NCBI GenBank assembly: GCA_017435665.1
Contig: JAFSEP010000062.1
Span: 1-37,561 of the forward strand
DNA from: Clostridia bacterium
GTDB lineage: Bacteria > Bacillota > Clostridia > Oscillospirales > Acutalibacteraceae
Length of the DNA: 37,561 nt
Direction of reading: 5' to 3'
Shown: piece by piece, positions 3,306-23,077 of the stretch
Layout: every line of letters starts with the position of its first letter
Numbering within the stretch: position 1 is the stretch's first letter
The notes under the pieces: generated by a model
The model's input: only the letters and a program-made list of their open reading frames with translations
Told to the model about the DNA's origin: nothing
Databases searched by the model: none
Program-made: the position numbers and the translations under genes

Positions 3306-3334
3306 ATTATAAGTAAAAAGGGGGAAAAAGTCAA
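3306..3334 (-). promoter_or_regulatory. Sigma-A promoter of glyQS
   Basis: On the minus strand, TTGACT, a 17-base spacer and TATAAT are followed by a leader of about 45 bases to the glyQS start. This is a near-consensus vegetative promoter. Confidence 0.85.
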
Positions 3335-3355
3335 TATTATTTTCTTAACATGGGA

Positions 3356-3391
3356 AAATCCCTGCTATGCCTATTGACAAAGCAGGGATTT
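3356..3391 (-). terminator. Hairpin terminator of the leftward peptide mRNA
   Basis: An 11-bp perfect stem (AAATCCCTGCT / AGCAGGGATTT) is followed on the minus strand by TTTTCCC. It would end the leftward transcript of the 27-residue peptide gene before the glyQS promoter. Its loop contains the -35 box of the rightward antisense promoter. Confidence 0.65.
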
Positions 3392-3402
3392 ATAAATATA
3401 AT
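3374..3402 (+). promoter_or_regulatory. Consensus promoter of a rightward small RNA
   Basis: TTGACA (3374-3379), exactly 17 bases, and TATAAT (3397-3402): a perfect sigma-A consensus. It points right, toward the 3' end of the leftward peptide gene, and has no open reading frame downstream. Confidence 0.85.
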
Positions 3403-3408
3403 GTAATT

Positions 3409-3497
3409 GAAAGGTAACCGTAAAAAGCGGTTAGCCTAACGGAAATTTATAATCATTAAACAACCGTCACTTTGCCGAGTGGCGGTTGTTGCTTTTT
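3409..3497 (+). ncRNA. Candidate antisense RNA (antitoxin RNA) to the 27-residue peptide gene
   Basis: The predicted transcript is about 89 nt. It begins about 7 bases after a perfect TATAAT. It contains a first hairpin (TAACCG / CGGTTA, about 3414-3435) and ends in a strong terminator hairpin (3459-3491) followed by GCTTTTT. The terminator overlaps the last codons of the oppositely transcribed peptide gene (3467-3550), so the two RNAs share about 30 complementary bases at the 3' end of the coding region. I see no coding potential. The arrangement resembles convergent type I toxin-antitoxin loci such as txpA/RatA or par of pAD1. This is an inference from sequence only. Confidence 0.65.
3459..3497 (+). 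terminator. Terminator of the antisense RNA, overlapping the peptide stop codon
   Basis: The stem AACAACCGTCACT / AGTGGCGGTTGTT has one G-U pair when read rightward and is followed by GCTTTTT. Read leftward, one pair is a C-A mismatch and the T tract is poor, so it should work mainly for the rightward RNA. Confidence 0.75.
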
Positions 3498-3550
3498 ATC
3501 CTAATCGTTACAGTATAACTGAATATATGTAATGTTATGATAATCGGCAT
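3467..3550 (-). CDS. 27-residue hydrophobic/basic peptide, candidate type I toxin
   Basis: This tiny gene starts MPIIITLHIF and ends NNRHSAK: a hydrophobic, beta-prone N-terminal two-thirds and a basic tail. I do not recognise a named family. It is supported by a perfect promoter (TTGACA-17-TATAAT at 3611-3639), a strong ribosome-binding site (AAGGGGGTG, 6 bases before the ATG) and a dedicated terminator. The Shine-Dalgarno is sequestered in a hairpin (GGGGGTG pairs with CACTCTC, 3556-3574), a common feature of type I toxin mRNAs. A convergent RNA with its own perfect promoter ends across the last codons. The likely role is a membrane-active or otherwise toxic peptide kept silent by antisense RNA. 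A free-standing small peptide of another role is the alternative. Confidence 0.65.
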   Translation of the reverse strand: MPIIITLHIFSYTVTIRIKSNNRHSAK

Positions 3551-3555
3551 ATTAA

Positions 3556-3574
3556 CACCCCCTTTCGGAGAGTG
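3556..3574 (-). promoter_or_regulatory. Hairpin sequestering the ribosome-binding site of the 27-residue peptide
   Basis: In the leftward mRNA, CACTCTC pairs with GGGGGTG across a CGAAA loop. This includes two G-U pairs and buries the Shine-Dalgarno six bases ahead of the start codon. Confidence 0.55.
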
Positions 3575-3610
3575 TACCAACCGCCTTAAACGCCTTCAAT
3601 TACAGCAGTT

Positions 3611-3639
3611 ATTATACTCCGACTGTAAAATTTTGTCAA
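3611..3639 (-). promoter_or_regulatory. Consensus promoter of the 27-residue peptide gene
   Basis: The minus strand has TTGACA, 17 bases, TATAAT: a perfect sigma-A consensus. The predicted start is near 3604, giving a leader of about 54 bases and an mRNA of about 250 nt if it ends at the hairpin at 3356-3391. Confidence 0.85.
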
Positions 3640-22617: not shown

Positions 22618-22965
22618 TGGTGGAGATGGCGGGAGTCGAACCCGCGTCCGAAAACCCATCCACCCGACTTTCTACGAGTGTAGTCTGTCTTTTAAGATTC
22701 CCCTCAGGTGACGCCGACGGACAGGCTTCACCCTACGGTATCCTCTTGTTCATGGCAAGGGACGAGGAAAGCCCCTGCTCACGTTCACTGCTCATCGACG
22801 CTTCTTTCCGGGCCGCAGTATTCCCGGAAGAAACGGGCTGCAATTAGGCAGCCTTTAATACTGTTGTATTGTCGTTTATTTTTAAGTTTGCGGCTTTTAT
22901 AGTGGATACCGCCCCACTACTCGCTTATCGGACTTCAGAATCCCCGTCGAAATCCTTTCATCCCC
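22618..22965 (-). ncRNA. ssrA: Transfer-messenger RNA (tmRNA)
   Basis: tmRNA rescues stalled ribosomes with SmpB and tags the nascent peptide for proteolysis. On the minus strand the 5' end GGGGATG pairs with CATCTCC ahead of an encoded ACCA. The T-arm GCGGGTTCGACTCCCGC is clear, and the 5' portion has GGATTTCGACGGGG. The tag frame (22844-22891) reads ANLKINDNTTVLKAA followed by TAA, beginning with the expected alanine resume codon. The length of about 348 nt is normal. smpB lies immediately upstream in the same direction. No promoter is visible between them; the gap is filled by a hairpin array, suggesting cotranscription and processing. Confidence 0.97.
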
Positions 22966-22967
22966 AT

Positions 22968-23077
22968 GTGGCAAAGCCGTTGGCTTTGCAGTGAAATCTG
23001 ACTTACGTCAGGTGAAATCTTTGCTTCGCAAAGGTGAAATCCTGCTTCGCAGGATGAAATCTGCCTTCGGCAGGTGG
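22968..23077. repeat. Modular hairpin array with GTGAAAT spacers between smpB and ssrA
   Basis: Five different perfect hairpins are separated by four RTGAAAT spacers: GCAAAGCC/GGCTTTGC, CTGAC/GTCAG, CTTTGC/GCAAAG, CCTGC/GCAGG and CTGCC/GGCAG. Loops are GTT, TTAC, TTC, TTC and TTC. The array starts right next to the smpB stop codon and ends 5 bases from the tmRNA 5' end. Confidence 0.85.

Follow-up and report, generated by a model that had tools for sequence, protein, structure and literature searches.

The window analysed here, a 37,561-nucleotide stretch that forms one contig of a 2.2 Mb genome, contains a cassette of about 280 bases (~3357-3639) in which two convergent transcription units are predicted. 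The cassette is flanked by a LytR_cpsA_psr (LCP) gene and by a gene for a class II tRNA synthetase with an anticodon-binding domain; the latter is consistent with glyQS, in agreement with the location between an LCP gene and glyQS given in the original prediction. Two perfect TTGACA-17-TATAAT promoters face each other, as had been described, and the leftward unit carries the expected 27-codon ORF, whose SD sequence is placed by folding inside a hairpin. The predicted terminator of the rightward RNA, a hairpin followed by a T-run, overlaps the last codons of this gene, again as proposed. In the direction of the toxin mRNA, the cassette comprises:

3611-3639, - strand: toxin mRNA promoter, TTGACA-17-TATAAT; predicted start at about 3604, where the alignment to the BsrG model also begins
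3576-3604, - strand: 5' arm of the clamp in the toxin mRNA leader (UGUAAUUGAAGGC..AAGGCGGUUGGU); from fold and covariation
3555-3575, - strand: SD-sequestering hairpin (SD GGGGGUG at 3556-3562); from fold, own versus swapped halves, and helices 5-6 of the covariation alignment
3467-3550, - strand: 27-codon ORF (3550-3470) plus stop (3469-3467), MPIIITLHIFSYTVTIRIKSNNRHSAK, beta-type candidate toxin; from ORF, paralogue and selection test
3459-3490, both strands: central hairpin, forming the antisense RNA terminator (T-run on the + strand) and encoding NNRHSAK on the - strand; helix 7, 98.8% of cells paired
3409-3497, + strand: antisense RNA, candidate antitoxin, about 89 nt with two hairpins; both ends predicted
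3402-3436, - strand: 3' arm of the clamp in the toxin mRNA (GGCUAACCGC..GGUUACCUUUCAAUUACA), complementary to the 5' half of the antisense RNA; from fold and covariation
3374-3402, + strand: antisense RNA promoter, TTGACA-17-TATAAT; from sequence and conservation across loci
3357-3391, - strand: inverted repeat AAATCCCTGC..GCAGGGATTT around the antisense -35; possible toxin mRNA terminator with a short U-run

Perfect promoters with a spacing of 16-18 occur only four times in the window, both strands counted, and this scarcity together with conservation across loci rules out a chance origin of the pair. Conservation was assessed in 97 of the 98 loci gathered (one had too little flank, and some loci are counted under two identifiers). 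An antisense promoter follows the stop codon with at least 9 of 12 matching positions in 96 of the 97 loci and with 12 of 12 in 63, as against control means of 8.5/12 on the other strand of the same stretch and 7.3/12 in a distant stretch (91 loci). Conservation is lower for the toxin promoter, which scores at least 9/12 in 78/97 loci (control mean 7.7), with weak cases of 6/12 at four loci and 3/12 at two. The leader motif is missing upstream in three of 87 loci (L084, L100 and L113), and at L089 the leader was judged by eye to be absent. The inverted repeat around the antisense -35, itself the possible terminator, did not figure in the original prediction; if it terminates the toxin mRNA, the leftward transcript would span the whole antisense gene. 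A terminator-like repeat lies behind the antisense promoter at 31 of 85 loci and spans its -35 at 23, of which 14, counted by eye, belong in or near the genus of the window; 2% of shuffled stretches show such a repeat. Just past the possible terminator, at 3306-3334 on the - strand, is a promoter-like site matching 11 of 12 positions (TTGACT-17-TATAAT), perhaps the promoter of the tRNA synthetase gene. Elsewhere in the window, a tmRNA gene (22618-22965, - strand) adjoins a Gut-1 RNA (22989-23065, + strand; 72 bits).

The original prediction had noted that the leaders of the two RNAs start alike, as if the halves of the cassette had arisen by inverted duplication. The similarity (GTAATTGAA, GG and GCGGTT) is real and renders the two ends of the toxin mRNA complementary, a property that had gone unmentioned; it is best explained by selection for a clamp within the mRNA. 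Taken as RNA, the stretch 3605-3374 folds with -68.4 kcal/mol (z -5.1; none of 200 shuffles as low), the first ~29 nucleotides pairing with the 3' part (3436-3402) and thus enclosing the SD hairpin and the central hairpin. The antisense RNA folds into two hairpins, likewise with a z of -5.1. Across 85 non-identical cassettes, the mean pairing energy of the leader with its own 3' end is -39.3 kcal/mol, compared with -28.0 kcal/mol for the 3' ends of other loci, -30.0 kcal/mol for the best of 2000 permutations and -22.7 kcal/mol for shuffled leaders. The own partner ranks in the top 5% at 55 of the 85 loci and is the very best at 22.

Covariation was examined in 67 of the 85 cassettes (less than 85% alike, antisense promoter of at least 10/12, leader motif present). 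In this alignment 87.6% of 2637 cells are paired, compared with 31-57% when the partners are slid, and 203 cells display double changes against 67 ± 8 in shuffles, none of 500 being as high; these totals pool the clamp, the SD stem and the central hairpin, and the clamp helices alone pair in 67-90% of cells. For the outer clamp helix, the share of paired cells is no lower after a slide of +3 columns (78.0%) than in register (74.1%), so that the alignment is poor at this point and its support comes from the energy test rather than from the columns. The SD stem prefers its own partner (-13.1, swapped -10.6, best permutation -11.6; 73/85 loci usable) and covaries beyond its core. A helix between the leader and the central hairpin, present in the BsrG model, displays no covariation, though 96.6% of its cells can pair. 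Since the variation of the leader at its last U follows the 3' arm, the clamp is favoured over this helix as the selected pairing. Structural occlusion of toxin translation is predicted through the SD hairpin and the clamp, with covariation.

The gene is small and conserved. Its product, originally described as a short hydrophobic and basic peptide, looks beta-amphipathic rather than like a typical hydrophobic helix. Selection was measured over codons 2-19 of 62 distinct ORFs of 27 codons (of 73). Identity at the first, second and third codon positions is 76, 90 and 43%, respectively, and pN/pS in frame is 0.27 (1891 pairs) or 0.17 (331 close pairs), against 1.2 and 2.6 (all pairs) and 1.4 and 3.2 (close pairs) in the shifted frames, in a set biased by the retrieval of most loci through peptide similarity. 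The window copy and its own paralogue, which a DNA search also finds, differ over the same codons by four synonymous changes and one nonsynonymous change. The peptide frame is under purifying selection, and the codons are conserved as a protein-coding reading of the ORF would have them.

The peptide family had not been recognised in the original prediction, and the searches agree: the window peptide has no match at E<=10 in Pfam, NCBIfam, PADLOC or the PDB, none at E<=10 to the Fst/Ldr (par) families of Pfam and NCBIfam, and none at E<=10 to Hol_Tox (PF16935), a search in which the HMMER filters drop most weak matches. PHROGs returned nothing for the window peptide and, for a relative, one weak match to a family of unknown function (phrog_4193, E 0.2). 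Over two strand-like heptads, the hydrophobic moment of 64 distinct beta-type peptides averages 0.81 at 175 degrees and 0.26 at 100 degrees, compared with 0.19 and 0.30, respectively, in 23 transmembrane-type peptides carried by related cassettes (chassis-mates, described below). The best 15-mer hydrophobicity is 0.59 in the beta type and 0.89 in the transmembrane type. By its moment profile, the window peptide does not resemble a Hol_Tox-like hydrophobic helix; the moment, high at 175 and low at 100 degrees, makes it look like an amphipathic beta-hairpin. Beta-type peptides comprise 27-29 residues, are Thr-rich and were seen in three sequence groups, MPxxxTxHI..TVTI..K..NRHSAK, MRITLHIG.FTVTIIVK.RNRHSAK and MKRLTLTIQFDKFTVTIVIKKR. 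The literature searched, which excludes most subscription journals and is no proof of absence, does not name this class, and queries with the peptide sequence strings returned no paper.

A second copy of the cassette is present in the same genome, with 80% DNA identity (query bases 44-306 of 307) and 93% protein identity; the homologous stretch (window 3617-3355) starts at the toxin -10 and ends at the possible mRNA terminator. A weak Gut-1-like match (33.9 bits) lies near this copy (L022:1121-1200). Among 39 genomes of the genus searched, DNA matches below E 1e-10 are this paralogue and copies in six other genomes, which argues that the cassette is not a product of chance; 32 of the 39 have some DNA match at E<=1, mostly weak. 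Peptide searches at E<=1 found matches in 10 of 34 genus genomes, the own genome included, the weakest being chance or broken copies. Several copies may occur in one genome at different places. The LCP gene was matched in 33 of 34 genus genomes, but among 30 LCP loci examined only the window locus has glyQS and a cassette within 1.5 kb, and thus no empty LCP-glyQS site could be read.

Across the order, a profile built from 13 peptides had matches in 44 of 394 genomes at E<=0.1 and in 18 of 394 at E<=1e-6, the own genome included (the latter counted by eye from the table). A pattern search of named genome contigs gave 355 stretches, 283 of them encoding a relative. The 79 loci retained all come from records whose titles name Bacillota or Clostridia groups; they include Evtepia, Anaerotruncus, Oscillibacter, Flavonifractor, Lachnospiraceae and Oscillospiraceae. 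On viral contigs of IMG/VR the pattern occurs in 15 stretches, of which eight code for a relative (L164-L171); some of the eight have identical leaders, and prophage carriage is suggested. Matches at E<=10 were also obtained in three phage records; in one the match is full-length and unannotated. In a plasmid collection, a record of Vescimonas fastidiosa has four matching places; its gene table, which is incomplete, shows no gene at the best of them. Three beta-type cassettes (L022, L049 and L120) have a T-box leader within about 300 bases, on one side or the other; the T-box match at L022 is below the gathering score. In one genome (G008), the 5' and 3' parts of a beta-type cassette are found at two different contig ends (L050 and L054), and both halves run into identical sequence, as if one mobile element had split a single copy.

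Of 4227 Rfam families, BsrG (RF01412) is the only one to match positions 3360-3615 at E<=0.1. The match covers the complete model (1-259 of 259) with 17.3 bits and E 0.034, below the gathering score of 55, and its alignment runs from the predicted start to the antisense -35. The features of the BsrG model, a 5'-3' main helix, an SD hairpin and a central hairpin, are all predicted in the window toxin mRNA. At E<=10 the only match of the model in this genome is to the window cassette (E 0.07); the paralogue goes unmatched. In 197 genomes of the order 52 were matched at E<=10, none above the cut-off, and in 14 control genomes three were matched, one of them above the cut-off; the three include Methanocaldococcus jannaschii. 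At 29 further distinct loci, scanned at E<=1 and E<=10, BsrG matched at the cassette in seven and elsewhere in none; 22 of the 29, the own paralogue among them, gave no BsrG match.

Reading of 28 BsrG-model loci revealed a small hydrophobic ORF behind an SD inside the match in 22 (13/17 on the + strand and 9/11 on the - strand, judged by eye from the ORFs). When eight such peptides were scanned against Hol_Tox (cut-off 23.3 bits), two scored above the cut-off, with 36.2 and 28.6 bits, three gave sub-threshold matches and three none. The leader pattern was found at 23 places in 15 of 295 genomes, which carry beta-type or transmembrane-type peptides except at L181 (chance) and L186 (too short to judge). 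The chassis, that is, the non-coding RNA scaffold, was compared in 28 cassettes, 16 found by the leader, 11 by the BsrG model and one as a neighbour, five of them of the beta type; L172, L187 and L182 (main beta type), L181 and L186, and L192 and L194 (short flanks) were dropped. All 28 have an antisense promoter of at least 10/12 (other-strand control 6-12), and their clamps pair with -37.7 for own versus -26.7 for swapped ends, the own end beating the swap mean in 27 of 28. The common leader, clamp and antisense promoter around differing peptides indicate that, as judged by sequence, one RNA chassis carries Hol_Tox, other transmembrane-type or beta-type peptides. At L055 (1400-1860), a degraded beta-type cassette directly adjoins an apparently intact transmembrane-type cassette of the same chassis. 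In a tree of the non-coding chassis pieces (77 rows) the peptide classes are intermixed, with nine toxin changes, at least three of them forced by starred branches and a single change in 0% of bootstrap trees; with 102 columns and 36 of 74 inner branches open, the tree gives only a hint of toxin switching.

The original prediction likened the locus to txpA/RatA, par and bsrG/SR4. Of these, par fits least. In par(pAD1), convergent RNAs, Fst and RNAII, meet at a shared hairpin, as they do here, and direct repeats lie near the RNA 5' ends. The ends of the window cassette are instead inverted repeats, so that its two RNAs start alike, and its peptide has no Fst match. The best fit is bsrG/SR4 of the Bacillus subtilis SP-beta prophage (RF01412), and in both bsrG/SR4 and bsrE/SR5 the antisense RNA overlaps the 3' end of the toxin mRNA, as in the window. 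The bsrG and window mRNAs both have a main 5'-3' helix, an SD hairpin and a central loop, and the covariance match is full-length, but its score is far below the family cut-off. Unlike in bsrG/SR4, the window central hairpin encodes the peptide C-terminus and the antisense RNA is predicted at about 89 nt; BsrG is, according to PMC8309996, a hydrophobic peptide of 38 residues, which contrasts with the 27-29-residue, Thr-rich, beta-alternating class of the window.

PMC6562991 describes bsrG/SR4 contact as starting between the antitoxin terminator loop and the central loop of the toxin mRNA; pairing then enters the 3' part of the main helix, the SD stem lengthens from 4 to 8 bp and RNase III cleavage follows. 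The contact sites have counterparts in the window, where the antisense terminator hairpin lies opposite the central hairpin and the next segment opposite the 3' arm of the clamp. These counterparts and the covarying SD stem suggest that the order of events may be the same. With txpA/RatA and Hol_Tox (PF16935) the window shares, by the same source (PMC6562991), a 3'-overlapping antisense RNA and a sequestered ribosome-binding site; two chassis-mates in the order exceed the Hol_Tox cut-off, in contrast to the window beta peptide, which has no Pfam match. The clamp is comparable to the long-distance 5'-3' interaction that, according to PMC6733600, keeps full-length hok and aapA mRNAs inert until 3' trimming. 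Unlike hok/Sok and aapA/IsoA, the window antisense RNA complements the 3' half of the mRNA and the peptide has no Pfam or NCBIfam match. The Clostridioides difficile pairs CD2517.1/RCd8, CD2907.1/RCd9 and CD0956.2/RCd10 are overlapping convergent type I toxin-antitoxin systems in Clostridia, a likeness drawn from their description in PMC6563280.

Together, selection on the frame, the antisense promoter, SD sequestration, clamp covariation, the sub-threshold full-length BsrG match and the Hol_Tox chassis-mates fit the type I toxin-antitoxin logic originally proposed. The locus is probably a chromosomal type I toxin-antitoxin cassette with a BsrG/SR4-like RNA chassis and an amphipathic beta-type peptide in the toxin position. 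Toxicity of the window peptide is inferred from the Hol_Tox and transmembrane-type peptides that the chassis carries elsewhere. In such a cassette, the leftward promoter would give an mRNA of about 230-250 nt spanning the antisense gene. Its 5' leader would pair with its 3' end in the clamp, with the SD held in a hairpin, such that the full-length mRNA would be poorly translated. The antisense RNA would target the 3' half of the mRNA; pairing would presumably begin in the loop of the central hairpin and proceed along the 3' arm of the clamp, which may invite RNase III and free the leader to keep or lengthen the SD hairpin. Upon loss of the antisense RNA, refolded or 3'-trimmed mRNA would be translated; 3' trimming may activate the clamped mRNA, as in hok and aapA. 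The peptide would then stop growth, perhaps at the membrane.

That the peptide is like no known type I toxin counts against this explanation, and among the alternatives an antisense-controlled peptide that is no self-toxin, namely a membrane-active antimicrobial or signalling peptide under an RNA switch of the same kind, is unlikely yet deserves the most weight. Amphipathic beta alternation also suits antimicrobial beta-hairpins, and a self-toxin and an exported peptide would be indistinguishable at the sequence level; the Hol_Tox peptides carried by the chassis elsewhere and the genes that flank the window copy, an LCP gene and a tRNA synthetase gene, speak against it. It is considerably harder to sustain that the peptide is a transmembrane helix after all and a divergent member of the TxpA/BsrG (Hol_Tox) family. 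The RNA chassis does match BsrG best, but the chassis-mates match Hol_Tox where the window peptide, within the limits of the HMMER filters, does not, and the moments of the beta and transmembrane types differ as described above. The inverted similarity of the cassette ends, the several copies per genome at differing places and the copies on viral contigs would also suit a MITE-like mobile element with an incidental ORF, the similar halves being its terminal inverted repeats. This reading is highly improbable given the purifying selection on the peptide frame, the covariation of the ends between copies as an RNA clamp, and a paralogue homology that begins at the toxin -10 and stops at the possible mRNA terminator.

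If the toxin-antitoxin reading is followed beyond the window, the beta-type peptides would constitute a structurally new class of type I toxins, amphipathic beta-hairpins rather than transmembrane helices, on a BsrG-like chassis into which, across gut Clostridia, unrelated toxins fit as into a general socket; the class of toxin would have changed several times and the RNA switch persisted. We consider this broader proposal slightly better than an even prospect. What is new here is the class of beta-type peptides, how widely it is spread, and the covariation that supports the clamp. The socket idea is not wholly so, since toxin exchange between two groups on the bsrG chassis is already suspected within Bacillus, according to PMC6562991. 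The clamp lends itself to testing, as the leader covaries with the 3' end of its own mRNA, which is also the target of the antisense RNA. If true, the proposal would provide a handle on small proteins of gut Clostridia that are unnamed in the family libraries searched, and would point to the RNA switch, not the toxin, as the unit that is conserved.
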